This document shows, one piece after another, positions 11,665-46,011 of a stretch of DNA of 64,000 bases; within the stretch, counting starts at the first letter, position 1, and every line of letters begins with the position of its first letter. This stretch comes from Candidatus Fermentithermobacillus carboniphilus (GTDB lineage Bacteria > Bacillota > Sulfobacillia > Fermentithermobacillales > Fermentithermobacillaceae). Location of the stretch: the NCBI GenBank assembly GCA_018208355.1, contig CP062796.1, positions 173,217-237,216 of the forward strand, in the 5' to 3' direction. The notes beneath the pieces were generated by a model that did not search any database, was not told the DNA's origin, and was given only the letters and a program-made list of their open reading frames with translations. A program made the position numbers and the translations under genes.

Positions 11665-12891
11665 ATGAACGAAAGAGCAGGAACAGGCGCGCCGCATGGC
11701 GGTCTTGCCGCTGGCGGTGAAGACCGGCTGGTATACATGGATAACTCTTCGACGACCAGGCCCGCCCCTGAAGTCGTTGAAGCCATGAGAAAAGTGCTGG
11801 AGGAAGACTTCGGCAACCCTTCCTCGCTGCACCGGTTGGGTACCGCTTCGTCTCGTATCGTAAGAAACGCTCGGAAAAGCGTCGCTTCTCTCATAGGGGC
11901 CGATGAAACCGAAATAGTATTCACGTCCGGCGGTACTGAAGCCAACAACTGGGCCATATTCGGGACTTTGCGGTCGCTCGGTGACAGGTCGACGCATATT
12001 GTGACCTCAACCGTGGAGCACCCTTCGATAATGGCGACAGTCGAATACTTGAGAGACAGCGGTTATGACGTAACGCTCGTTCCGGTTGACGGGGAGGGGT
12101 TTGTAGATCCCGAAAAAGTGCTTAAGTCTGTCAGGAAAGATACAGCGCTGGTTTCAATCATGCTGGTTCAAAACGAAATCGGCACAGTTGAACCCTGCCG
12201 CGAGATCGGCAGGCTTCTTTCGAGTCTCGGACCCAGGCGACCCCGGTTCCACGTAGATGCGGTCCAAGGTTTCGGGCGCCTCGACATAGACGTAAAAAAG
12301 TGGGGGATAGATCTTTTGAGCATGAGTGCCCACAAGATTCACGGGCCCAAAGGGGTCGGGGCGCTTTACGTGAGACGCGGTCTCAGAATGGGTCCCCTGA
12401 TTTTCGGGGGCGGTCAGGAAGCAGGCCTGCGTTCGGGAACCGAGAACGTTCCCGGGATCGCCGGCATGGGCGCGGCGTGCGAAATGTGGGGGAAAGATAG
12501 GGTGGAGGTGCTGGGGAGACTGGCGGTGCTCAGAAAGAAACTGATCGAGGGGGTACGCGAGGCCTGGCCTGAGGCGGTCCTGCACGGTCCCGAGTCGGCA
12601 AACGTAGCGCCATATATAGTACATTTCTCGTTCCCCGGGTTCCGTGGAGAATCCATCCTCCACGCCCTGGAGAAGCGCGGGGTTTTTGTCTCCACCGGCT
12701 CAGCGTGCTCATCTCACAAGGCCAAGCCCAGTCCCATCATCCTCGCTCTAGGCAGGAGCGAAGAGGAGGCGCTTTCGGCGATCAGGTTCTCCATGTCGCG
12801 GTACACGACGGAAGAGGAAGTGGCAATCACCGTTGAAGCCCTGAAAGAATCCTTGAAAGAGCTGTTGCCGTGGCGAGAAAGCAGAAGATAG
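11665..12891 (+). CDS. Cysteine desulfurase (NifS/IscS type)
   Basis: PLP enzyme that removes sulfur from cysteine for tRNA thiolation or Fe-S assembly. Visible features: YMDNSSTTRPAPEV at the N-terminus, TSGGTEANNW, the PLP lysine in SAHKIHGPKG near residue 218, and the active cysteine in STGSACSSHKAKPS near 345. The ATG at 11665 has GGAGGG 9 bases upstream and gives 408 residues. An open stretch of 32 codons before it has no ribosome site. thiI follows 170 bases downstream, so this enzyme most likely supplies ThiI, as NifZ does in B. subtilis. Confidence 0.95.
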   Translation: MNERAGTGAPHGGLAAGGEDRLVYMDNSSTTRPAPEVVEAMRKVLEEDFGNPSSLHRLGTASSRIVRNARKSVASLIGADETEIVFTSGGTEANNWAIFGTLRSLGDRSTHIVTSTVEHPSIMATVEYLRDSGYDVTLVPVDGEGFVDPEKVLKSVRKDTALVSIMLVQNEIGTVEPCREIGRLLSSLGPRRPRFHVDAVQGFGRLDIDVKKWGIDLLSMSAHKIHGPKGVGALYVRRGLRMGPLIFGGGQEAGLRSGTENVPGIAGMGAACEMWGKDRVEVLGRLAVLRKKLIEGVREAWPEAVLHGPESANVAPYIVHFSFPGFRGESILHALEKRGVFVSTGSACSSHKAKPSPIILALGRSEEEALSAIRFSMSRYTTEEEVAITVEALKESLKELLPWRESRR

Positions 12892-35662: not shown

Positions 35663-35806
35663 TCGCGGCCTCTTCGTTCCGGCCTCGTTGTGCGCCACGT
35701 GTAAGAGTTCTCGCCTATAAACCATTTTACCCGCTCCCCGCGTATAATGTCTCGCGGTGAAGGATTAACCGGCTGTGAATACTAATGCGGGGGAGGCGCC
35801 GTTTGG

Positions 35807-36097
35807 GTGGAGAGAAACGTCCTTCGCGCCAGCACAGGGCCAAGCCTGCGGCTTGTTTCCCACGAAAGAAGCTGCCACTACGCGGCTATACCGGAGAATG
35901 AGAATTTCTGTTCCATCCCGCACTTACAAAAGACCCCGGGCGCAGAAAGTGCCCTCGAGGAGTTGAACTCGCTGGTCGGGCTCAACAAGGTGAAAGAGCT
36001 GGTTTTTGAGATCTACGCCTTTGCGGAGGTTCAGAAGAAAAGGGAAAGAGTCGGACTTTTAGGAGAAAAGACCGTGTTGCACATGGTGTTCAAAGGC
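35807..36097 (+). CDS. spoVK: SpoVK-like AAA+ ATPase, 5' segment (gene interrupted by the element)
   Basis: First 97 codons of spoVK, a AAA+ ATPase of the CbbX/SpoVK family required for spore maturation. The last 55 residues show the family N-domain: LEELNSLVGLNKVKELVFEI, EVQKKRERVGLL and VLHMVFKGNP. The match stops exactly at KGNP, the beginning of Walker A, where the integrated element begins; read onward, the frame gives LNSPMKLVGI and ends at 36175. The GTG at 35807 has GGGAGG 11 bases upstream. A TATAAT lies at 35743-35748. The remainder of the gene is at 45358-46011 in the matching phase. Confidence 0.82.
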
Positions 36098-36122
36098 AAT
36101 CCCTTGAATTCTCCGATGAAAT
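36078..36122. other. attL-like junction of the spoVK element
   Basis: The host-derived left half reads ...TTCAAAGGC and the element-derived right half TCCCTTGAATTCTCCGATG, around the central AA at 36098-36099. AAAGGCAATCC here matches AAAGGTAATCC at the right end (45352-45362). The single difference (C36097 / T45357) lies just left of the AA, which allows the crossover to be placed to its right. The minus-strand recombinase stop codon lies inside this site. Confidence 0.75.
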
Positions 36123-37637
36123 TGGTCGGAATAAGGTCTCAGATAGCCGGATGTCCGCAATGGCTCTATCCTTGACTATCGTGCCGTTGATGATTGTTCG
36201 GAGGACATTCTGTATCATGCGCGCATCGCCATTGTTCCACAGCCACAAGAGTTCCTTTGCTTCGGACCCGATATGCTGGTCAACCTGTTCTTCCCGGGGT
36301 ATTCGAGAGAGTATCTCAGCTCTTTCTGCTTCCAGAGCTTTTCGTTCACGCTCAACTCTCTCGCGGGCAAGGCGAAGATCGTTGTCAGAAATTATGCCGT
36401 TTTCGTAGGCCTGAATCTGGCGTTGAAACTTTTGGTCTATAGCGGCTTCGCGGCGTGCGAGGTCTTCGAGCAGGGCCTTTGACGCCTTCTCTAGATCGCT
36501 GCTGGAGGTGTACATCATTCCGGCTACCAGGTCTTGTAATGCCTCATACACAGTCTTTTCCGCCTCATCAATGAAGACATAGTTGAACCAGCAACCGCCG
36601 CTCTTCTGATACTGAGAACACACAAATATCAGCCTATCTTTGTTGGGCCCCTTGTTACCATATCTTCTCGATACCATCTTGCTCCCGCAGTGCCCGCATA
36701 TCACGAGCCCGGATATCCTATATTTCATCTGCTTCTCACCGCCTTTCGGCATCTTTCGGGTTAACCTGGCCTGGATTTGGTCCCACTGCGCTCTACTCAG
36801 TATGGGTTCGTGAGCATTATCGCACACGATCCAGTCTTCAGGATTTCTCCAGCGCATCTTGCCGTTTTTATCGTAGTAGCGGCGGTTCCAGATGACTCTT
36901 CCAGCATACAATTCGTTTGTGAGCATGGCGCGGACCGTAGGACCGGACCACGCCTTACCTTTCTTCGTCCTCACACCTGCTTCGTTCAAGATCTTTGAAA
37001 TCGCCCTGTAGCCGTACCCTGCTATAAACAAGTCCGCAGCCCTCCTAACCCATTCCGCTTCTTCGGGCACCTCAACCAAGTTTCGTTCGTCGTCAAAGCG
37101 GTATCCGAAAGGGGGGACTGCCATATACTTTTTCTTCTTTGAGACTATCTCGGCCATGTTTGTCTTCACACGGGTCGCTATCATAGCCCTTTCAAATTCA
37201 GCAAAAGCCGCCAGGATCTGGAGAACCATTCGCCCTATCGGGGTCGACGTATCGAAGTTGAGCGACGTACACACATACGCAGTATCGTGCTTTTCGCAAA
37301 GCTCGATGAAATTCAGCATGTCGAGCAGGTTGCGGGAAAGCCTGTCTATAGCCATAGTTGCCACGACAGCAACCTTTCCCTCCTTAATGAGACTTAAAAG
37401 CCTCTTCATTGCAGGTCTATTCATATCCTTGGCTGACGCACCCTCGTCTACAAATGTCTCGACATAGTCCCATCCCTGAAACTTGGCATAAGCCGCAAGC
37501 TTATTGAGCTGTGTGTCTATGGACTGCCCTTCTCGTGCCTGCTCATCTGTGGAAACACGGGCGTACAGCGCCACAATTCTGTGATGTGGATTTGACTGGG
37601 GTAGGTTTGAGATGTTCTCGTTCTGGATGCCCCTCAT
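36090..37637 (-). CDS. Large serine recombinase of the spoVK element
   Basis: 515 residues, size and layout of a large serine integrase. The catalytic domain starts IVALYARVSTDEQAREGQS (nucleophile Ser29), with AIDRLSRN and the GRMVLQILAAFAEFER helix. The recombinase domain follows (FGYRF, GYGYRAISKILNEAG), then a zinc ribbon (CGHCGSKM with CSQYQKSGGCW) and a coiled coil near 395-445. The ATG at 37637 follows AAGGAGA. The last codons and TGA lie across the left attachment core: the integrated form ends SRDCL, while a circular form would end SRDYL with TAA. It is the obvious enzyme for integration and excision. Confidence 0.96.
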   Translation of the reverse strand: MRGIQNENISNLPQSNPHHRIVALYARVSTDEQAREGQSIDTQLNKLAAYAKFQGWDYVETFVDEGASAKDMNRPAMKRLLSLIKEGKVAVVATMAIDRLSRNLLDMLNFIELCEKHDTAYVCTSLNFDTSTPIGRMVLQILAAFAEFERAMIATRVKTNMAEIVSKKKKYMAVPPFGYRFDDERNLVEVPEEAEWVRRAADLFIAGYGYRAISKILNEAGVRTKKGKAWSGPTVRAMLTNELYAGRVIWNRRYYDKNGKMRWRNPEDWIVCDNAHEPILSRAQWDQIQARLTRKMPKGGEKQMKYRISGLVICGHCGSKMVSRRYGNKGPNKDRLIFVCSQYQKSGGCWFNYVFIDEAEKTVYEALQDLVAGMMYTSSSDLEKASKALLEDLARREAAIDQKFQRQIQAYENGIISDNDLRLARERVERERKALEAERAEILSRIPREEQVDQHIGSEAKELLWLWNNGDARMIQNVLRTIINGTIVKDRAIADIRLSETLFRPISSENSRDCL

Positions 37638-38099
37638 ACGTCGCTCAATCTCCTTGTGTCACCTCTTCTATGCCTATGCTAAACGGCATCCCACGAAGCA
37701 CCGGACATCTGCGCAGTTTCGGAGGCGGAGGGGCTATCTCGAAGACAATCGAGCACACGATTCTCTGGCGCGGAAATCTTGGGGGCCAGCCGATGATTAC
37801 TATTTCTAACAACTTGTGCCCTCACCGGGAGAAGTGTTACCTTTACTGACGTACCGGTGAAGGACGCGGGGTATCAGATTGTCATTACCTGAACAAGCGC
37901 TACGTCGGCCAAAGTATGTTCATATGTGCATTGTTTTTTGGAGGCTTATGCATATGCTTTGGCAAAGATGGAGGTCCAGAGAGTAAGATGAATGAATCTA
38001 CCGGAGGTCGCTCGTCCACACCGATTGGTTTGCCCTGTTGAATGTGCTGGGAATCACCGGGATTAGTCATGTTGCTTGCTACCACATAAAGCGTTCGAA
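37638..38099. other. element interior without a supported gene
   Basis: About 460 bases between the recombinase start and the GGDEF remnant. Short open frames exist on the plus strand (for example 37670-37849 and from 37917) but they lack ribosome sites and recognisable sequence. The recombinase promoter should lie here on the minus strand; I see CATA motifs near 37675-37685 but no promoter I would call. Confidence 0.4.
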
Positions 38100-38243
38100 G
38101 TGGTCGTGTTTATCGAAAGCCAAGTCAAGGAACTAGGGATGTCATTTGGGGTGGCTATGTTTCCCGCTGATGGGGATTCACTGGAAGACCTTCTGAACAT
38201 CGCTGACAGGATGCTTTATAGGGCGAAAGAGAAACTATCTTGA
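38100..38243 (+). pseudogene. GGDEF-domain C-terminal remnant
   Basis: The frame reads LGMSFGVAMFPADGDSLEDL followed by LNIADRMLYRAKEKLS and TGA. This matches the end of a diguanylate cyclase domain (SiGvA..P.dg....LL..AD.alY.AK). The frame is closed by TAG at 38064, and the GGDEF active-site half is absent. Possible GTG starts at 38100 and 38106 would give at most 47 residues, so it is a decayed fragment. Confidence 0.55.
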
Positions 38244-38344
38244 TGTTATCTTGAAAGTATCTTGATAGTCGATGTGCATACTTAGTGGCGGTAAAACCAA
38301 GTTACGCGAACTTGGTAGGAGCTTATCAAAAAGGGGGAATCCAC

Positions 38345-38845
38345 GTGAAAAGGGCGACCATAATAGGATTAGCGGTACTCTTTACGGTAGGGCTTGCGGT
38401 TCCCGCTTTAGCCCAAGGTTTTAAGGGTGGGGCATGGTGCGGTGGCCTCCTCGGCCTCGGCCGGGATCCTGCTGCGTTAGCTGATGTCATCGCGGGGTTA
38501 GGTTTGAGCGATGACCAGGTGGCGAATATACAATCGCTCCAGCAAACTGGATTCGAGAAACTCCAGAGCATACGGGAAGCTGTGTGGAAAAAGCAGCAAG
38601 AGCTCAGGAGCATGCTGTGGCAGAAAAACCCCGACAAGAACGCCATCTCTGCCAAGTGGGATGAACTGCGTCAGCTCCGGCAGCAGATGAACGATTTAAT
38701 GCAGGAACTCCGCAACCAGATGCAGAGCGTCCTGACACAGGAGCAGCTCAACAAGTTGCAGCAGAATCGGCCTTGCGGACGAGGCCGATGGGGAGCTAAT
38801 GGTCAGAACCGTCCAGCAGCAAGACCCTTCAGCTCTAACTTGTAG
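38345..38845 (+). CDS. Spy/CpxP-like exported protein
   Basis: 166 residues. An N-terminal signal peptide (MKRATIIGLAVLFTVGLAVP, cleavage likely after ALA) is followed by a mostly helical, Gln-rich region: LGLSDDQVANIQSLQ, then VLTQEQLNKLQQ near the end, the LTxxQ motifs of the Spy/CpxP/CnrX group of extracytoplasmic chaperones and metal sensors. The GTG at 38345 follows AAAGGGGG; a longer frame from 38285 lacks a ribosome site and would bury the signal peptide. Terminator follows. Carried as cargo by the spoVK element. Confidence 0.75.
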   Translation: MKRATIIGLAVLFTVGLAVPALAQGFKGGAWCGGLLGLGRDPAALADVIAGLGLSDDQVANIQSLQQTGFEKLQSIREAVWKKQQELRSMLWQKNPDKNAISAKWDELRQLRQQMNDLMQELRNQMQSVLTQEQLNKLQQNRPCGRGRWGANGQNRPAARPFSSNL

Positions 38846-38881
38846 GCGATAGCAGCTTCTAGGGCCCCAACCCACCAATAT

Positions 38882-38920
38882 ATGGCGGTGAGGCCTTGTC
38901 TGCCTCGCCGCCATGTTTTT
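38882..38920 (+). terminator. Rho-independent terminator after the Spy-like gene
   Basis: A 13-bp stem ATGGCGGTGAGGC / GCCTCGCCGCCAT (one T-G pair) with a 7-base loop, followed by GTTTTT. One of the strongest terminators in the window. Confidence 0.92.
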
Positions 38921-38949
38921 AGGTGGCATAGTAGATGGATGGCATCACT

Positions 38950-39031
38950 GTTGACGAGTCAACAAAATGCTTGATACCATAACTTCATGGTCCCAAGACC
39001 ATATGACAGCATGTGCATCTGTCAGCTGGGG
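38950..39031 (+). promoter_or_regulatory. structured leader / candidate promoter of yitT-like gene
   Basis: GTTGACGAGTCAAC (38950-38963) is a palindrome containing a TTGACG that could serve as -35 with TACCAT 18 bases on. Two small perfect hairpins follow: ATGGTC-CCAA-GACCAT near 38985-39002 and TGACAG...CTGTCA near 39003-39023. Role unknown. Confidence 0.3.
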
Positions 39032-39049
39032 TAAATCTGGTGGGCTCTC

Positions 39050-39901
39050 ATGCGGACATTCAAGCAGTATGTCATCATCACGTTCGGAATGTTTGTCTTG
39101 GCTGTCGGACTGTACTTTTTCCTTATACCTGGCCAGCTGGCAGCGGGCGGGGCAATGGGTATCGCCATGCTTATTTCCCACTACATCCCTTTCCTCCAGG
39201 TTGGACAGCTCATGCTCGCCATCAATATCCTCCTTTTTCTCATAGCGTTTGTCGTCCTGGGCACCAGTTTCGGGTTGAAAACGATCTATACCAGTCTCGG
39301 TCTGTCAGCCTTGATCTGGATTCTCGAGAACGCGTATCCGCTGCAAAAACCACTGACAGACGACCTACTACTGGCTGCGGTTATGGGGACCGTCATTTCG
39401 GGTGCAGGTATGGGAATAATTTTCAACCAGGGTGCATCCAGCGGAGGCACGGATATCATAGCCAAGATAATAAATAAATACACCCACCTTGACATCGGAA
39501 AAGCTCTTCTCGTGACTGACGCCCTGATCACCCTTCTCGCAACCGGGGTTTTCGGGCTTGAAAAGGGTATGTACGCTCTCCTTGCAGTCATCTTCAACGG
39601 TTCCGTCATAGATTATACCGTCCAAGGTCTCAACGTCGCGATGCAGGTATTCATCATGACGTCGAAGCCCGACACCATCGCCAGGTTCATAATCGATCAC
39701 CTGGGAAGGGGGGTTACGTTTTTATCCGGCAGGGGAGGCTACTCCGGAAAGGAACTCAAGGTTATATATACCGTGCTCAACAGAAGGGAATTCGTCTCCT
39801 TGAAGAACTTCATCAGGGAGGAAGATCCAAAGGCCTTCATCACCGTCAGCCAGGCCCACGATGTCCTGGGAGAGGGCTTCAAAGCCATAACATCAGAGTG
39901 A
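39050..39901 (+). CDS. YitT family membrane protein
   Basis: 283 residues. Five or six membrane helices occupy residues 1-170 (for example YVIITFGMFVLAVGLYFFLI and LTDDLLLAAVMGTVISG), with the conserved GIIFNQGASSGGTDIIAKII. The last 80 residues form the soluble DUF2179 domain (LGRGVTFLSGRGGYSGKELK). Function of the family is not established; members are widespread in Firmicutes. ATG with GGTGGG upstream. Cargo of the spoVK element. Confidence 0.93.
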   Translation: MRTFKQYVIITFGMFVLAVGLYFFLIPGQLAAGGAMGIAMLISHYIPFLQVGQLMLAINILLFLIAFVVLGTSFGLKTIYTSLGLSALIWILENAYPLQKPLTDDLLLAAVMGTVISGAGMGIIFNQGASSGGTDIIAKIINKYTHLDIGKALLVTDALITLLATGVFGLEKGMYALLAVIFNGSVIDYTVQGLNVAMQVFIMTSKPDTIARFIIDHLGRGVTFLSGRGGYSGKELKVIYTVLNRREFVSLKNFIREEDPKAFITVSQAHDVLGEGFKAITSE

Positions 39902-40049
39902 GCCTCACCCGGCCCGGTTGCGTCTCTTTTGGATCCGAGTAACGGGATACTGCGAAAAATCGAGAAAACAAGAGATCCGTGGAGAAAAAGGCAGATCCGT
40001 ACGTAACCATGCGCTGATAATCCAGAAGGAGGCGTAACACGCGAACCGC

Positions 40050-40085
40050 TTGACTTTGACTAACTTTGACTTATCGTAATATATC
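40050..40085 (+). promoter_or_regulatory. candidate hsp20 promoter with three TTGACT repeats
   Basis: TTGACT occurs at 40050, 40056 and 40066. The second copy with TATATC (40080-40085) gives an 18-base spacer. The repeated hexamer could also be a regulator site. No CIRCE element was seen. Confidence 0.33.
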
Positions 40086-40149
40086 CTTGCTGGAAAGCCA
40101 AAACGGCCTATCCAATTGAACAACAATCTTCCAGGAAGGAGGAGTTCTC

Positions 40150-40590
40150 ATGATTAGACCGTGGAATGCTATTGCCGAGCTATCAAGGCTCGAAAGGAAC
40201 ATAAACTCTCTGTTTTCAGAGCTCTGGAGGGATCTCTCACCGAAGACGCTGATAGAGGAGGAACTCGGAGGGTTCCCAGTCGATGTGATAGACCAAGGTG
40301 ACAGCCTGACTGTCAGGGCCGAACTTCCGGGAGTAGATAAGGAAAACATCGAACTTAATTGCACTGAGGATACAGTGAGCATTGCCGTTGAGAAGAAAAG
40401 TGATATCGTCGTTAAAGACCAGTACTGGCTGAGGCGGGAATCCTCCTTTGGAAAAGCAGTTCGCGTGATTAGGCTGGATTCGCCCGTTGACCCGACCAGG
40501 GCCGAGGCCTCACTCAAGAATGGCGTGCTCACGGTGAGACTTCCCAAGACACAGCCGTCGAAACGCGGACACAGGATCCAGATTGACTAA
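40150..40590 (+). CDS. Hsp20/alpha-crystallin family small heat-shock protein
   Basis: 146 residues, holdase chaperone. The alpha-crystallin domain spans about 42-135, with FPVDVIDQGDSLTVRAELPG, VDKENIELN and the conserved ASLKNGVLTVRLPK. ATG follows AGGAAGGAGG. A 9-bp hairpin without T-run lies 34 bases after the stop. Cargo of the spoVK element. Confidence 0.95.
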   Translation: MIRPWNAIAELSRLERNINSLFSELWRDLSPKTLIEEELGGFPVDVIDQGDSLTVRAELPGVDKENIELNCTEDTVSIAVEKKSDIVVKDQYWLRRESSFGKAVRVIRLDSPVDPTRAEASLKNGVLTVRLPKTQPSKRGHRIQID

Positions 40591-40619
40591 CCTACGGAGT
40601 AACTCATGACCGGGTAACT

Positions 40620-40656
40620 GGAGGCCGGACTCCATCTCGAAGGTGAGTCCGGCTCC
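40620..40656 (+). terminator. hairpin after hsp20
   Basis: Stem GCCGGACTC (40624-40632) / GAGTCCGGC (40645-40653), extended by GGA/TCC with one bulged G. It is followed by TGATT, so it is a weak terminator at best. Confidence 0.5.
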
Positions 40657-40662
40657 TGATTG

Positions 40663-40887
40663 CTAGTAACCTAAACCTAAGCCGCCTCTGGACCGCGTTC
40701 TCCCAACACGGTACACGAACTCGATGGTCTTCCCAGACTTGTCCGAATAACTGGGGTCTACAGTACGAATTATCCGCTCTGCCCCGACTGACAGCGATGC
40801 GCCGGATGCAGTAGCAACAACTGTCTTGCGAGTTTTCCCCTGCACCAAAGAGGAAGACTCCCCAGCTCGGGAATCGGCGCTATCCAT
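40663..40887 (-). CDS. Doubtful 74-residue frame
   Basis: A small basic frame (ending FVYRVGRTRSRGGLGLGY) on the minus strand between hsp20 and the ABC exporter. The ATG has no ribosome site at a proper distance (AAGGGGG is 16 bases away) and no start codon lies closer. No family is recognised. If real it would share the palindrome-rich intergenic region with the ABC genes. Confidence 0.25.
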   Translation of the reverse strand: MDSADSRAGESSSLVQGKTRKTVVATASGASLSVGAERIIRTVDPSYSDKSGKTIEFVYRVGRTRSRGGLGLGY

Positions 40888-40914
40888 AGCCGGAAAGAGT
40901 TACCCCCTTAGAGT

Positions 40915-40968
40915 TTCTTCGTAGTCCGATATATTTGTACTACGAAGAACGTGTGATATGATCATATC
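40915..40968 (+). promoter_or_regulatory. palindrome-covered promoter of the ABC exporter genes
   Basis: A perfect 11-bp inverted repeat TTCTTCGTAGT (40915-40925) / ACTACGAAGAA (40939-40949) and a perfect 14-bp palindrome GATATGATCATATC (40955-40968). A promoter TTGTAC (40935-40940)-16-TATGAT (40957-40962) overlaps both. This is the layout of an operator-controlled promoter; no regulator gene is next to it. Confidence 0.6.
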
Positions 40969-41045
40969 GCAAAAACATGACACCTCGTATTTTGGGGTCG
41001 TGCAGTTCGGTAGCTTGACTTCCCGTAAGGTTAGGCGAGGATTTA

Positions 41046-41120
41046 ATGAGCGATACTGAGACAATCGTCCGGTTAAGGAGGGTCAAGTGGGAAACGACCA
41101 AGTCGGAGGGCATGGTTTAG
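41046..41120 (+). CDS. 24-residue upstream open reading frame (possible leader peptide)
   Basis: ATG with GGCGAGG 8 bases upstream encodes MSDTETIVRLRRVKWETTKS plus GMV-ending tail, stop TAG at 41118, 18 bases before the first ABC gene. Its place resembles bmrB, the leader peptide that controls the B. subtilis bmrCD exporter by attenuation, but I see no clear terminator/antiterminator pair. It could also be a non-coding leader. Confidence 0.35.
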   Translation: MSDTETIVRLRRVKWETTKSEGMV

Positions 41121-41138
41121 TCTGAGGAGGGCAGTCCT

Positions 41139-42914
41139 TTGAAGACTCTAAAAAGGCTTTTGGCTTTCGCGCTTCCATATTGGAAGGCCTACGCTGGCGC
41201 CCTCATTATGGTCTTGGGCGTCACGGGCCTCCAGCTCATGCAACCGATGCTGGCACGCTGGATAGTTGATGGCATATACGCTAACCATCAATGGAGCCTG
41301 TTACTGTGGGGCTCTCTCGCTATGACTGGAACAGCGGCCGCCAGCGCTGTCTTTGGCTACCTACAGCGATATTGGATGTCCTGGGCAGGCCAAAAAGTCA
41401 TCTACGACATACGCAACCGGCTGTACCAGCACCTGCAGCAGCTATCTTTCAGCTTTTACGATAAGGCGCAGACCGGTCAACTCATGTCGCGCGTCACTGC
41501 AGACGTAGAGCAGACCCGCATGTTCCTTTCCAATCAGATGATACAGATCGTGGCGGCGGGGGTCAGGTTCCTGGCCACATTCTGCCTCATGCTGTCCCTT
41601 GACTGGAGACTTACGCTGGTAGCCATGATCCCCGTCCCGGTGCTCGTATGGCGGGCCGAGATCTACGCTATGGTAATACGTCCAATGTTTTGGTCAATTC
41701 AGCAGCAGCTGGCAGTGCTGACAGCCACGTTGCAGGAAAACGTCACAGGTCAGAGAGTTGTGAAAGCGTTCGCCCGTAAAGATTTCGAGATTAAGAAATT
41801 CGAGCGCGACAATCTGGACCTCATGGAGAAGAACGTGAACACGCTGAGGGCGTCGGCTTTCAACGACTCCCTGATGACCCTCCTCACCGAAAGCAGCCTT
41901 GCTATCATACTGCTATGGGGTGGGCGCGAGGTAATGCGCGGGGCCCTTACCGTCGGAACGCTGGTCGCTTTCAACACTCTCATCGTCCAGATGCTCCAGC
42001 AGGTTAGGATGCTGGGGATGTGGATCAGCGGAGCCACGAGGACTATTGCAGCAGGAGATAGGATTTTCGAGATTCTGGACACCAAAGCAGAGGTCTCGGA
42101 TAAACCCGGGGCCAAACCTATACCTAAAATACAAGGACGCGTCACCTTCGAAAACGTTAGCTTCGCATATGACGGTGAGCATATGGTCCTTGAGGACATA
42201 AACCTCGACGTGAAGCCCGGCGAGACCATTGCGATCCTGGGCGGGACCGGTTCCGGGAAGTCGACGTTGATAAACCTTATCCCCAGGTTCTACGACGTCA
42301 CGAAAGGGCGCATCTTGATCGACGGGCATGACATACGAGATGTGACACTGGATAGCCTCCGCCGGCAAATAGGAGTGGTGACGCAGGAGACGTTCCTGTT
42401 CTCTGCATCATTGCGGGATAACATCGCTTACGGAAAGCCCGAGGCGAGCGATGCCGAGATCAGGCGGGCAGCAGAAGCAGCCCACATCGACGAGTTCATC
42501 GACAGCCTCCCTGACGGGTACAACACCATCATCGGCGAGCGAGGCGTAGGGCTTTCCGGTGGGCAAAAGCAAAGGGTGGCAATAGCGCGAGCTCTCCTCA
42601 TGGATGCCCGAATCCTCATTCTGGATGAATCTACCTCCAGCGTGGACGTGGAGACTGAGATGAAGATCCAGGAGGCTTTCAACAAATTACTCGCTGATCG
42701 AACTGCTTTCATAATCGCTCAGAGACTTTCCACGGTGAGGAACGCCGACCGAATTATCGTCCTGGATAAGGGACGGATCGTCGAGGAAGGGACCCATGAG
42801 GAACTCCTTGCCAGGGGCGGAATCTACACTGCTATCTACAACCTACAGTTCAAGGGTCAAGAGGAAAACGAATTACGGAACGAATCTGCTACTGCGGAAG
42901 GTGGCGAGAAGTAA
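41139..42914 (+). CDS. ABC multidrug-type exporter half, first subunit
   Basis: 591 residues: six membrane helices (to about 310) and a nucleotide-binding domain. Walker A GGTGSGKST near residue 368, signature LSGGQKQRVAIARAL, Walker B ILILDESTSSVD. The switch histidine is replaced by glutamine (FIIAQRLSTV), a mark of the degenerate partner in heterodimeric exporters such as BmrCD or LmrCD. TTG start 9 bases after GAGGAGGG. Its TAA overlaps the ATG of the second subunit. Confidence 0.95.
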   Translation: MKTLKRLLAFALPYWKAYAGALIMVLGVTGLQLMQPMLARWIVDGIYANHQWSLLLWGSLAMTGTAAASAVFGYLQRYWMSWAGQKVIYDIRNRLYQHLQQLSFSFYDKAQTGQLMSRVTADVEQTRMFLSNQMIQIVAAGVRFLATFCLMLSLDWRLTLVAMIPVPVLVWRAEIYAMVIRPMFWSIQQQLAVLTATLQENVTGQRVVKAFARKDFEIKKFERDNLDLMEKNVNTLRASAFNDSLMTLLTESSLAIILLWGGREVMRGALTVGTLVAFNTLIVQMLQQVRMLGMWISGATRTIAAGDRIFEILDTKAEVSDKPGAKPIPKIQGRVTFENVSFAYDGEHMVLEDINLDVKPGETIAILGGTGSGKSTLINLIPRFYDVTKGRILIDGHDIRDVTLDSLRRQIGVVTQETFLFSASLRDNIAYGKPEASDAEIRRAAEAAHIDEFIDSLPDGYNTIIGERGVGLSGGQKQRVAIARALLMDARILILDESTSSVDVETEMKIQEAFNKLLADRTAFIIAQRLSTVRNADRIIVLDKGRIVEEGTHEELLARGGIYTAIYNLQFKGQEENELRNESATAEGGEK

Positions 42915-44842
42915 TGGGATTCCACATGCATGGACCTGGCGGCGGGCGTCTGGACATGGACGATATCAGCTTCAAGGACGTCAACTTCAAGCACCTTGGC
43001 AGAACAAAGGAATTTCTGCTGCCGTTCTGGTGGCAGCTATCACTTGCCATGGTGCTGGTGGTGGCCATTGCAGCGTTGGGTCTTGAGGGCCCGGTCATTA
43101 TCGGTAAGGTGGTCGACCTTATCCAGTTATCCGATACGACCAATCAGCAGCTTTATAGTTTGGTTGCCCTGTACTTCGGGGTCCAGGTCTTGATCGCGGT
43201 TCTACGATACGCGCAGACGTATATCATGTCATGGACTGGGCAGAAGATCCTGTACTCAATGAGGAAGAAGTTATTTGTCCATCTACAGGACCTGGGCCTG
43301 GACTTCTATGACAAACTTCAGGCCGGTCGCATCATGTCACGGGTCACAAACGACGTTGAGGCGATAAACCAGCTGCTTTCTGGCGGTTCTCTGAGCCTCT
43401 TGTCCGATGTAGTGACGATCTTTGGCATAATTACCGTCATGTTGCGCATGAACAGCAGGCTGGCACTGGTGACTTTCATCACGGTACCCCTTTTGTTCCT
43501 TACCATATATTCGCTGCAAGGAAAGATGACCAGGGCGTATCACAAGACCAGACGGCGGCTGGCAGACATCACCGCCAACTTGCAGGAATCTATATCTGGC
43601 ATGAGGATCATCCAGGCATTTTCTCGCGAGGACCTTAACGCAGAAAGGTTCAGCAACACCAACGAGCAGAACTTCCGGGCCCAGATGGAAGCCGCACGTC
43701 TTCGGGCCATCTTCTTCCCTCTGGTCGATGTCATAGGAACCCTTGGCGTCGCGCTCGTGTATTACTATGGTGGTATACGAATGTCCTTAGGTGATACTCT
43801 GGTCAGCGTAGGGACCATCACTGTTTTCGTCAACTATACCAATCGGTTTTTCTGGCCTGTGAGGAATCTGGTAGAGGTGTGGGACTTGATTCTGCAGGCA
43901 GCCGTGTCGTCGGAGCGCGTCTTCGAGATCCTTGACACCAAACCGAACGTGGTTGATAAACCTGGTGCAATTGATCTTGGCAGAGTTCAGGGACACGTGG
44001 AGTTCAAGAACGTCACTTTCGGGTACGATCCGAGCCTTCCCGTATTGCACAACGTGAACATCGAAGCGAAGCCAGACGAGACCATAGCACTGGTCGGACC
44101 GACCGGAGCGGGGAAAAGCTCCATCATCAACCTTCTGTGTCGGTTCTACGATGTCCAGAGCGGACAAATACTGGTCGATGGTCACGACATCCGCGACGTC
44201 ACGATCCAGTCGCTTCGCCAGAATCTGGGCATTGTGTTGCAGGATACGGTGCTGTTTTCTGGGACCATCAGAGAGAACATAAGGTACGGCCGCCTCGACG
44301 CCACCGACGAGGAAGTAGAGGAAGCGGCCAAGATCGTGGGTGCGCACGAATTCATCATGCGGCAACCTGAAGGCTACGATACACAAGTACGCGAGCGTGG
44401 GTCCAGGCTATCAGTAGGGCAACGCCAGCTTTTGGCATTTGCCAGGGCCCTCTTGGCTAACCCGAGGATACTCATCCTGGACGAAGCTACGTCCTCGGTG
44501 GATGCTTACACGGAACTCCAGATCCAGCGGGCTCTCGAGAAGCTCTTAAAAGGTAGGACCTCAATAGTTATCGCCCATAGGTTGTCGACTATCAGGAACG
44601 CGGACCGGATCTACGTGATCGACCACGGCACCGTTAAAGAAGTCGGGACTCACGAAGAACTTATCGCGCAAAACGGCCTATACAAATCCTTGTACGAGAA
44701 GCAGTTCGCAGGTGAGCCTGAAGACTACAAGGCCGCTCCGGTGGTGGATATGACCGAGGCAAAGGCGCGCCTGGGTGGACATTCTCAACCCGGGACTGGG
44801 GTACGAGTGGCGATGGAGAATAGCAACAGTGCTGACCATTGA
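42914..44842 (+). CDS. ABC multidrug-type exporter half, second subunit
   Basis: 642 residues: a Gly/His-rich start (MGFHMHGPGGG), six membrane helices and a nucleotide-binding domain. Walker A GPTGAGKSS near residue 396, Walker B ILILDEATSSVD and a normal H-loop (VIAHRLSTI). The signature is LSVGQRQLLAFARAL, with V for the first G. Together with the Gln switch in the first subunit, one ATP site of the dimer is intact and one altered. About 45 polar residues trail the domain. Terminator at 44927. Confidence 0.95.
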   Translation: MGFHMHGPGGGRLDMDDISFKDVNFKHLGRTKEFLLPFWWQLSLAMVLVVAIAALGLEGPVIIGKVVDLIQLSDTTNQQLYSLVALYFGVQVLIAVLRYAQTYIMSWTGQKILYSMRKKLFVHLQDLGLDFYDKLQAGRIMSRVTNDVEAINQLLSGGSLSLLSDVVTIFGIITVMLRMNSRLALVTFITVPLLFLTIYSLQGKMTRAYHKTRRRLADITANLQESISGMRIIQAFSREDLNAERFSNTNEQNFRAQMEAARLRAIFFPLVDVIGTLGVALVYYYGGIRMSLGDTLVSVGTITVFVNYTNRFFWPVRNLVEVWDLILQAAVSSERVFEILDTKPNVVDKPGAIDLGRVQGHVEFKNVTFGYDPSLPVLHNVNIEAKPDETIALVGPTGAGKSSIINLLCRFYDVQSGQILVDGHDIRDVTIQSLRQNLGIVLQDTVLFSGTIRENIRYGRLDATDEEVEEAAKIVGAHEFIMRQPEGYDTQVRERGSRLSVGQRQLLAFARALLANPRILILDEATSSVDAYTELQIQRALEKLLKGRTSIVIAHRLSTIRNADRIYVIDHGTVKEVGTHEELIAQNGLYKSLYEKQFAGEPEDYKAAPVVDMTEAKARLGGHSQPGTGVRVAMENSNSADH

Positions 44843-44926
44843 AGATGCTGAACCCCTCCCGCGGGATTGGAAGAACCCTGGAGCACACTCCTCAGAAAAC
44901 TTCGCAGGAAAACAGAGAGCTTTAGG

Positions 44927-44957
44927 CCTCCTGTAGTCCTGGGAGGTTTTTTCTTTT
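44927..44957 (+). terminator. Rho-independent terminator of the ABC exporter operon
   Basis: CCTCC (44927-44931) pairs with GGAGG (44942-44946) around a 10-base loop, followed by TTTTTTCTTTT. Confidence 0.85.
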
Positions 44958-45105
44958 GTCTGGCGGTGAACTGGGGAAGACCCACGATTTCACTGTCAAT
45001 GCAGCGATTTCGCACCCCTCCTGACCCCAGGCGGGTTACAGGTCATGTCTTCCCGGTATAAGGGACAAACCGAGCCCAGTATGCATCTTCTTGGAGGTCG
45101 ATTCG

Positions 45106-45312
45106 ATGAAACCGGCAGTTAGTGTAAAGGTACGCGATAAGTGGGTGCATCTGGATAGCCTGCCCGAAAAGGACCGTGAAGAAATTCGGAAAAAGATAGC
45201 TGAAATACTGACGGATGCGCTAAAGCTGCAGATTAACTTATATATCTCTGGTTGCTGCTCGAACGGGTCAAAGCACGATATGGCCGCAACGCACCGTGGG
45301 AGCGCCGTGTAA
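45106..45312 (+). CDS. Small protein adjacent to the right attachment site
   Basis: 68 residues from an ATG with GGAGG 10 bases upstream. The core VKVRDKWVHLDSLPEKDREE followed by IRKKIAEILTDAL resembles short proteins that often accompany recombinase genes in Firmicutes. The C-terminus has GCCSNGSKHDMAA. It ends 45 bases before the crossover at 45358, in the same reading phase as the 3' part of spoVK but separated by TAA. Position and size make it a candidate excision-directionality factor; there is no direct evidence. Confidence 0.6.
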   Translation: MKPAVSVKVRDKWVHLDSLPEKDREEIRKKIAEILTDALKLQINLYISGCCSNGSKHDMAATHRGSAV

Positions 45313-45332
45313 AGGTGGAGTCCCTTTTTATT

Positions 45333-45378
45333 CGATTTCACTGGAGAAATTAAAGGTAATCCGGGTACGGGAAAAACC
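45333..45378. other. attR-like junction of the spoVK element
   Basis: Element-derived left half GATTTCACTGGAGAAATT then AAAGGT, central AA at 45358-45359, host-derived right half TCCGGGTACGGGAAAA, which codes for the rest of Walker A. Joined to the left end of the element it makes an imperfect dyad (18 of 25 paired positions agree in each half by hand count) centred on the AA. Confidence 0.75.
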
Positions 45379-46011
45379 ACCGTTGCCCGGATAATAGGGA
45401 GACTCCTCTTCGAAGCCGGGCTTTTGGAGAAGGGGCACGTGGTCGAGGTCGAAAGGGCCGATCTCGTCGGAGAGTACATCGGCCACACCGCCCAGAAGAC
45501 AAGGGAGCAGATACGGAAAGCCTTGGGAGGGATCCTCTTTATCGACGAGGCATATTCGCTGGCGAGGGGTGGAGAGAAAGACTTCGGAAAAGAGTGCATT
45601 GACTGTATAGTCAAGGGTATGGAAGACCATTCCCGGGATATGGTGTTCATACTTGCCGGATACCCAGCTGAGATCGAGCAGTTTCTCCGCACCAACCCCG
45701 GACTCCGCTCGAGGTTCCCGATCCACCTGGACTTTCCCGATTACTCAGTTGAAGAGCTGGTTCAGATAGCTTGCCTCATGCTTCAAAAGCGCGACTACAA
45801 GTTGTCGCCGGAAGCATACGGCGTGCTTGAGAACATAATCCGGGAAAAGATCGAGACAGAAACCGTTCCGTCAAACGCGAGGATGGTAAGAAACCTCATC
45901 GAAAAAGCCATAAGGAGGCAGGCTGTGCGCTTGGTGAGGGAGGGCGCGTTCAGCCGGCAAGATCTCATGCTCATCACGTCCAAAGAATTGCTGGAAGCTT
46001 CCGTGCGTTAG
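45358..46011 (+). CDS. spoVK: SpoVK-like AAA+ ATPase, 3' segment (gene interrupted by the element)
   Basis: Remaining 217 codons and stop. The frame begins NPGTGKTTVARIIGRLLFEA, then has LVGEYIGHTAQKT (pore-loop region), Walker B GGILFIDEAYSLARGG, the sensor-1 segment FILAGYPAE and the arginine region RSRFPIHLDF. Nothing in the sequence suggests decay: no internal stop or frameshift. Alone it lacks the N-domain and the first half of Walker A, and its first possible internal ATG (45424) lies after Walker A, so it should be inactive unless joined to 35807-36097. hflX starts 53 bases after its stop. Confidence 0.87.
   Translation, partial: NPGTGKTTVARIIGRLLFEAGLLEKGHVVEVERADLVGEYIGHTAQKTREQIRKALGGILFIDEAYSLARGGEKDFGKECIDCIVKGMEDHSRDMVFILAGYPAEIEQFLRTNPGLRSRFPIHLDFPDYSVEELVQIACLMLQKRDYKLSPEAYGVLENIIREKIETETVPSNARMVRNLIEKAIRRQAVRLVREGAFSRQDLMLITSKELLEASVR

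Follow-up and report, generated by a model that had tools for sequence, protein, structure and literature searches.

A serine-recombinase element splits the sporulation gene spoVK of Candidatus Fermentithermobacillus carboniphilus and is predicted to be excised in the mother cell

How can a bacterium make the SpoVK ATPase when its spoVK gene is cut in two inside the Walker A motif? The question is raised by a 64,000-nucleotide stretch of the Candidatus Fermentithermobacillus carboniphilus genome (contig CP062796.1, positions 173,217 to 237,216 of the forward strand), hereafter the window, in which spoVK is interrupted by a 9,260-bp element with a large serine recombinase at one end. An earlier note on this DNA had proposed that the element is removed during sporulation and that spoVK may be a new case of a developmental gene switch. 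The analysis reported here makes it probable that the element is excised in the sporulating mother cell, which would restore a complete spoVK gene.

spoVK is present as two open halves

The break falls between the residues KG and NPGTGKTT of Walker A. The 5' part (35807-36097, plus strand) comprises 97 codons up to the KG, and the 3' part (45358-46011, plus strand) runs from NPGTGKTT to the stop codon. Both were found open and in phase when the frames were recomputed, as the earlier note had stated together with the place of the break, the size of the element and its terminal recombinase. The shared core that it had seen at both ends was also recovered, as AAAGGCAATCC at the left end (attL, 36092-36102, plus strand) and AAAGGTAATCC at the right end (attR, 45352-45362, plus strand), with predicted crossovers at the AA of 36098-36099 and 45358-45359, respectively. 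When the halves are joined at this AA (36098/45358), precisely 9,260 bp are deleted and 945 nt remain, that is, the complete gene of 314 codons and a stop that had been predicted.

The 3' part alone scores 339 bits with the family model TIGR02881 (spore_V_K), the 5' part alone gave no match at 1e-60, and the joined protein scores 405.8 bits compared with 399-421 bits for four intact relatives; all five proteins lie slightly below the curated cut-off of 422.95. The frame of the 3' part is open from 45313, and its first in-frame ATG, GTG or TTG is found at 45424, codon 23 after the junction. Walker A should therefore not be translated from the 3' part before the halves are rejoined. A search of the genome (a single contig of 2.317 Mb, 94.5% complete) with the joined protein returned the two pieces and otherwise only weak matches (five matches at E≤1e-3, two of these at E≤1e-8). 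A second intact spoVK, which the earlier note had named as an observation that would speak against its proposal, was thus not detected at this level of completeness.

Other Bacillota have spoVK split at the same codon

The recombinase was used as a query (E≤1e-60) against genomes of the class and a sample of genomes drawn from the phylum, to which we give handles beginning with G (loci with L, proteins with P). Of 154 class genomes three matched, namely the window's own and, at 32-34% identity, G024 and G050. The phylum sample yielded 7 matching genomes among 398, again with the window's own, and identities to its recombinase of 68% (G316), 58% (G228), 57% (G233), 54% (G502, partial), 50% (G242) and 33% (G533). 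In G316, G228, G233, G502 and G242 the recombinase lies in spoVK, and the N-terminal half ends at the same codon as in the window (tblastn). All five other genomes found with a recombinase at least 50% identical to that of the window thus have spoVK split at one and the same codon, whereas tblastn found no spoVK near the more distant recombinases in the DNA fetched for G024 and G050 (4.3 kb each) and G533 (16 kb). This comparative evidence is the decisive evidence. Two further class searches (4 and 13 genomes) added no recombinase relatives; a contig scan with the single recombinase gave no confirmed relative and was repeated with an alignment of 26 recombinases.

Three of the relatives carry small in-line elements of 2.9-3.7 kb, in which the recombinase is accompanied by one or two further genes: 3,578 bp with an aminotransferase in G228, 3,700 bp with a radical SAM gene in G242, and 2,918 bp with a radical SAM gene with SPASM in G233. 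G242 is Natranaerofaba carboxydovora (475 of 476 recombinase residues, P0065), whose genome is a single contig. When joined, spoVK is open in G228, G242, G233 and G316 and scores 396-420 bits with TIGR02881. In a 28-row recombinase tree (18 of 108 proteins and 10 sequences from loci), a clade with support of 100/98 unites the window with its sister P0001, G316 and P0004; L048 and L054, two phage-like loci described below, pair elsewhere, and G242 is a long branch. The clade, together with the lack of the recombinase in those other genomes of the window's family that were searched, points to horizontal spread.

Some observations from the same searches concern spoVK in further assemblies. The spoVK 5' region of G502 occurs in two versions 5.4% apart, one intact and one cut at the element site (L044, L058). 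The first spoVK residue on a contig of G019 (L045, C69:1-4000), with which that contig starts, is residue 94, so that only one or two codons separate it from the split site, and G019 gave no strong match to the N-terminal half; this may be due to chance, or to a junction that is collapsed or mixed. Open frames of 1063-1347 aa with three tandem SpoVK matches (39-49% identity) in G030 (C22), G065 (C159) and G064 (C255) are multi-domain AAA proteins of some class members.

Relatives show the empty site, and selection on the halves is not relaxed

An uninterrupted allele in relatives, for which the earlier note had suggested looking, does exist. Uncut spoVK was found and compared in 9 of 13 genomes of the window's family; a family search detected no spoVK orthologue in G002, G006 and G009, and the gene of G003 is cut by contig ends elsewhere in its length. 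For G316, the empty site itself is available in G216, a member of the same genus with intact spoVK: the left G316 contig matches the G216 locus to base 1661 and the right contig from base 1650, so that the two meet at the core.

Comparison of G316 with G216 gave dN/dS values of 0.019/0.896 for the C-terminal half (213 codons) and 0.016/0.933 for the N-terminal half (55 codons); a third value, over 110 codons, was discarded as meaningless because an upstream stop had shifted its codon register. For the window, the C-terminal half has the lowest dN of ten in the family to three outgroups (0.207-0.213 compared with 0.216-0.275), and the dN of the N-terminal half, 0.381-0.385, is near the low end of the family range of 0.380-0.469 to the same outgroups. 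The window's halves thus show no relaxation of selection, in a comparison whose saturated dS gives no age for the insertion. For two of the three outgroups, the C-terminal distances of the other split genes do not leave the range spanned by five intact genes; with the outgroup G013, G242 (0.423) and G233 (0.405) exceed the highest intact value of 0.394.

A sister lineage (P0109, the one match among nine candidates) encodes the same truncated N-terminal protein. Compared with the window, 4 of 97 residues are changed in its spoVK part and 5 of 25 in the tail (p 0.017), the tail overlapping the recombinase gene in antisense and for this reason being no neutral yardstick. Decay of the halves in relatives, the other observation that the earlier note had held to count against its proposal, is therefore not seen in the sister lineage, as far as the N-terminal half goes, or in four of the five other split genomes, and is seen in G502.

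The attachment site and its probable phage origin

The window contains six matches with at most one mismatch to the 11-mer, compared with 2.4 expected, and 2 of 100 shuffles reach six. The two exact matches are the two junctions. The 11-bp repeat alone was rejected as significant evidence, near-matches being common in the window. It is raised above chance by the palindromy of the attachment site attP, by the same geometry in related elements and phage-like contigs, and by the empty site in the same-genus relative of G316. The attP predicted for the window is an imperfect palindrome about the AA with 14 of 20 arm positions matching, a value reached by 4.7e-5 of window positions. Rebuilt attP sites of the relatives are likewise palindromic about the AA, with 13 (G316), 13 (G228), 11 (G242) and 11 (G233) of 20 arm positions.

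Loci L048 and L054 encode recombinases 64-65% identical to that of the window, and directly beyond the recombinase 3' end they carry an attP-like sequence with 16 and 17 of 20 arm positions, respectively. L048 belongs to a Thermoanaerobacterium metagenome-assembled genome, where amidase- and holin-like genes (names read from translations) adjoin, and L054 is an IMG/VR contig. These better versions of attP make a temperate phage integrating at spoVK the likeliest origin, and the element family is likely derived from such phages. The phage ancestor would have been reduced to the recombinase, a small protein, the att sites and exchangeable cargo.

More distant loci lack this arrangement. L055 (recombinase 48% identical) has no such attP site at that place and no spoVK, and no spoVK was present in the stretches examined of the Cohnella-type loci L051, L052, L056 and L057 (35-38%). 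Repressor-like genes, read from translations, are found next to the recombinase in L051, and the Cohnella-type loci were read as a related phage integrase with another target. A degenerate attP scan of viral contigs gave at least 120 stretches. Among 120 loci (L095-L214; 119 from the degenerate scan and the contig of L054), the recombinase was found only on the contig of L054, which was also the sole match to a stricter attP pattern in the viral contigs.

The recombinase and a conserved small protein

The recombinase (36090-37637, minus strand, 515 aa) is located at the left end and reads outward into spoVK. Resolvase (PF00239), Recombinase (PF07508) and zinc-ribbon (PF13408) domains were assigned by Pfam, the protein matches the PHROG integrase phrog_95, and it carries the invariant Ser29 in a YxRVS stretch as well as a DRLSR stretch; the three domains and the catalytic serine that define large serine recombinases are all present. 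Its final codons and stop (36090-36102) sit in spoVK DNA past the crossover, and an excised circle would therefore carry the gene with a slightly altered 3' end.

At the right end, a conserved 68-aa protein is encoded (45106-45312, plus strand). Homologues occur beside the recombinase in G228, in L054, and in G316 just before attR, the end at which the protein is also found in the window. A profile of four members, run against 8,104 open reading frames (ORFs) of the loci, recovered its own members or their copies in overlapping loci and a single ORF of L055, located just upstream of the recombinase (E 0.0015). A large protein collection contained seven relatives at E≤1e-3, the window's own included, and for four of the other six the longest contigs are equal in size to those of recombinase homologues (200,891; 67,689; 6,415; and 13,023, the last that of L054). 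PHROGs, Pfam and NCBIfam gave nothing convincing for the small proteins, the best match being 0.0032 for one of four members. Small-protein candidates of G233 and G242, alike by eye, were missed by the profile and were not counted. The linkage to the recombinase, the size and the place of the 68-aa protein suggest that it is likely a new recombination directionality factor, a candidate role that we infer from sequence features.

Cargo, host genes and neighbourhood

The G+C content of the element is 0.521, and that of the flanks 0.531 and 0.524. Gene order across the locus is mutL, miaA, hfq, a small ORF, the N-terminal half of spoVK, the 9,260 bp, the C-terminal half and hflX, the names mutL, miaA, hfq and hflX being read from translations. 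The cargo genes are all on the plus strand. A GGDEF-domain fragment (38076-38243; PF00990, 1.1e-6) contains only the C-terminal part of the domain, and this 55-aa tail behind the recombinase is probably the remnant of a larger gene. It is followed by a Spy-like Metal_resist/LTXXQ protein (38285-38845; PF13801, PF07813), a YitT-family membrane protein (39050-39901; PF02588, PF10035), an Hsp20 small heat-shock protein (40150-40590; PF00011) and two ABC exporters (41139-42914 and 42914-44842; both PF00664 and PF00005). Eight element ORFs were scanned with Pfam, and none of their matches is to a phage family for structure, replication or lysis; PHROGs were applied to the recombinase and the small protein only.

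Within the element, DNA-level matches to the ABC loci of six same-family genomes cover the ABC pair (about 41106-44719), with 70-73% identity in five of them and 65% in G013; the proteins are 76-80% identical in the five and 66-68% in G013. Exporter 1 has orthologues in adjacent pairs, about 76% identical in the five and 66% in G013, exporter 2 has orthologues of 76-81% identity in five same-family genomes, and the only match to exporter 2 in the window's genome at E≤1e-150 is the element copy. These findings suggest that the lineage's own exporter pair, or that of a close relative, now resides in the element. The Spy-like, YitT and Hsp20 genes were not found in the 14-18 kb around those ABC loci, and no whole-genome search was made for them.

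In G316, the DNA inside both att ends is chromosomal. Its recombinase contig runs on into a permease-like gene, and the contig with the small protein and the C-terminal half comes from iscS- and iscU-like genes (all read from translations) and mnmA (Pfam), of which this is the only copy matching at E≤1e-30. In G173, a member of the same genus assembled as one contig, mnmA lies next to the permease gene (on L221 the matches stop at 12722 and start again at 12684), and an intact spoVK is located some 149 kb away. The spoVK and mnmA-permease junctions of G316 (L219, L220) and G173 (L221) are reciprocal, as after an inversion of about 149 kb, a reading that assumes the gene order of G173 between the two points for G316, a draft of 110 contigs. 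Judged by the match directions, there appears to have been a reciprocal inversion between spoVK and a module of small protein, attP and recombinase that was placed between mnmA and the permease gene. A random inversion breaking inside an inserted element would look identical.

Sporulation context

The window's genome contains a strong SpoIVA match (710 bits) and sigma-E/K-like factors. SpoIVA was found in five of the six genomes with split spoVK, four of them over the cut-off and G316 with a partial match at a contig end. The sigma-K model has matches in all six, over the cut-off in three; as it also matches 11 of 14 control genomes, only strong matches count. An uninterrupted sigma-K-like frame is present elsewhere in the window's genome (295 bits, cut-off 298.65).

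In B. subtilis, spoVK is expressed in the mother cell from two promoters, one under sigma-E with SpoIIID and one under sigma-K (PMC517825). According to that paper, among 17 sigma-E genes activated by SpoIIID two depend on it almost completely, spoIVCA and spoVK; spoIVCA is the gene for the skin recombinase (PMC5025042). Upstream of the window's spoVK lies the promoter-like motif GCGTATAATG (35740-35749, plus strand), and the sequence GCGTAT is aligned upstream of spoVK in nine of nine sequences (the window and eight same-family genomes).

The sigK gene is also split in G242 (L086, C1:1638500-1643000): the SigK model matches an N-terminal part at 4024-3671 and a C-terminal part at 939-556, both on the minus strand. 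Between these parts, about 2.7 kb apart, lie the gene for another serine recombinase (1066-2616, 516 aa), different from that in spoVK, and a small ORF that we read as acetyltransferase-like. There are thus two intervening elements in this one genome. The sigma-K matches of G228 for the N-terminal part (C74:1145-1450) and the C-terminal part (C183:2192-2539) are on different contigs, as if its sigK were split too.

Proposed mechanism and alternative explanations

Before excision, no SpoVK ATPase would be made, because in neither half does a start codon that could be used precede an entire Walker A. In the sporulating mother cell, the recombinase would recombine attL with attR at the AA and rejoin spoVK, with the 68-aa protein acting as the directionality factor that permits excision. 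Expression of the recombinase or of the small protein would be limited to sporulation, the circle and its cargo would be lost with the mother cell, and the element would stay in the spore's chromosome. Both the excision and its timing in the mother cell are inferred.

Several observations weigh against this mechanism. A scan with a B. subtilis sigma-E consensus gave no site with at least 11 of 15 positions ahead of spoVK or of the genes for the recombinase and the small protein, and no common motif was seen upstream of the recombinases or the small proteins. The intact halves of the window could partly reflect a recent insertion. No SpoIVA match was obtained in G228. The att sites of G316 would be inverted relative to each other, and rejoining there would consequently need an inversion and not an excision. 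In G502 the recombinase and the N-terminal half are on one contig, incomplete, and an intact spoVK is present on another, 94.6% identical over the 753 bp up to the junction; the split copy is a decayed duplicate or a strain mixture.

A rival explanation is a mobile element that merely uses spoVK as a conserved, vegetatively silent attB, with excision occurring at random or under stress for its own spread and spores depending on rare excisants. The phage-like relatives with the same attP, the absence of the element from the rest of the window's family, as far as searched, and the failure to recognise a sporulation promoter all fit such an element, which we nevertheless consider unlikely. Even where the in-line elements are tiny, the halves are open, and they are under purifying selection in G316 and not relaxed in the window; that they are kept open under selection despite small elements suggests that rejoining is needed regularly. 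It is less likely still that spoVK has been disabled in lineages losing sporulation, as might be suspected from the missing or weak spoVK of several class genomes, three stops in that of G054, the decayed copy in G502 and the missing SpoIVA match in G228. The halves are open in five of the six split genomes, dN/dS is about 0.02 in G316, no rate increase is seen in the window, and SpoIVA is found in five of six, one of them partial.

Two further explanations have hardly any probability. Both halves are open, as would be expected if they were made separately and then assembled as a split protein, but the cut lies inside Walker A, no possible start codon (ATG, GTG or TTG) precedes codon 23 past the junction in the window's C-terminal half, and the att sites and recombinase already account for the split. 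An assembly artefact might be suggested by the draft metagenome assemblies of several relatives, but the same codon is split in six genomes, including the single-contig G242, and the sister-lineage protein spans the same left junction. Excision in the mother cell stays the preferred explanation for the window.

Comparison with known intervening elements

Three general features of intervening elements are present here: a gene in two in-phase open parts, an internal recombinase near one end and a short core common to both ends, at which exact removal restores the gene; for a fourth, a directionality factor, the 68-aa protein is a candidate. The skin element in sigK is removed by SpoIVCA in B. 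subtilis and by CD1231 with the directionality factor CD1234 in C. difficile (PMC5025042). It likewise splits a mother-cell sporulation gene in frame with a large serine recombinase at one end, and the small partner protein shown for C. difficile has a candidate counterpart here. The split gene, however, is sigK in the case of skin, for which excision has been shown, and spoVK here, where excision is predicted and the cargo is not prophage-like. The gin element in gerE of B. cereus ATCC10987, also without phage genes, has serine recombinases and a small extra factor (GirX), and its excision has been shown in sporulation and in vitro; it measures 28.6 kb with three recombinases, compared with 9.3 kb and one recombinase in spoVK (PMC5595907).

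The elements vfbin (spoVFB), vrin (spoVR), SPbeta (spsM) and phi3T (kamA) also use mother-cell genes as attB and are prophages or derived from prophages, the gene being rejoined by their own recombination unit (PMC4191935, PMC6957869). As described in the relevant passages, they are phage-sized or carry phage genes, a stage that only the phage-like L048 and L054 resemble here. The yin element in yabG of C. botulinum likewise has its recombinase beside the 5' part of the gene and a putative small directionality factor; it is described as unique to one isolate (PMC10747680), whereas spoVK is split in six genomes. The interrupted genes named in the pertinent passages of PMC4191935, PMC6957869 and PMC10747680 are sigK, spsM, spoVFB (spoIVFB in one passage), spoVR, gerE, kamA and yabG, and spoVK is not among them. 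Nor was a split spoVK described in the titles or abstract beginnings of the open-licence literature covered by a full-text search, and to this extent the claim of novelty in the earlier note holds.

Implications

With its structure, conservation and selection observed, spoVK is a new target, with a new element family, within a known type of developmental rearrangement, and this known kind of gene switch likely extends to spoVK. On a bolder and clearly tentative reading, which we think has somewhat less than an even chance, a spoVK-specific module of recombinase and small protein flanking one attP, spread across distant Bacillota, would rearrange the mother-cell chromosome, by excision in the window and by an inversion of about 149 kb in G316 that would have to flip back to rebuild spoVK. 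Host-lineage genes (the ABC pair; mnmA) now lie inside or beside the rearranged DNA, so that the mother cell would have a gene content or gene order unlike that of the spore, which would be the bacterial equivalent of programmed rearrangement between soma and germline.

If the excision predicted for the window is true, spoVK joins the few sporulation genes that are made whole by rearranging DNA. The finding concerns a family of related elements and not one strain, and its 2.9-3.7 kb versions would be near-minimal natural excision systems. The candidate directionality factor is testable in E. coli, and N. carboxydovora offers a named species with a single-contig genome in which spoVK and sigK are both split. 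The apparent inversion in G316 suggests that rejoining of a split sporulation gene need not be an excision.

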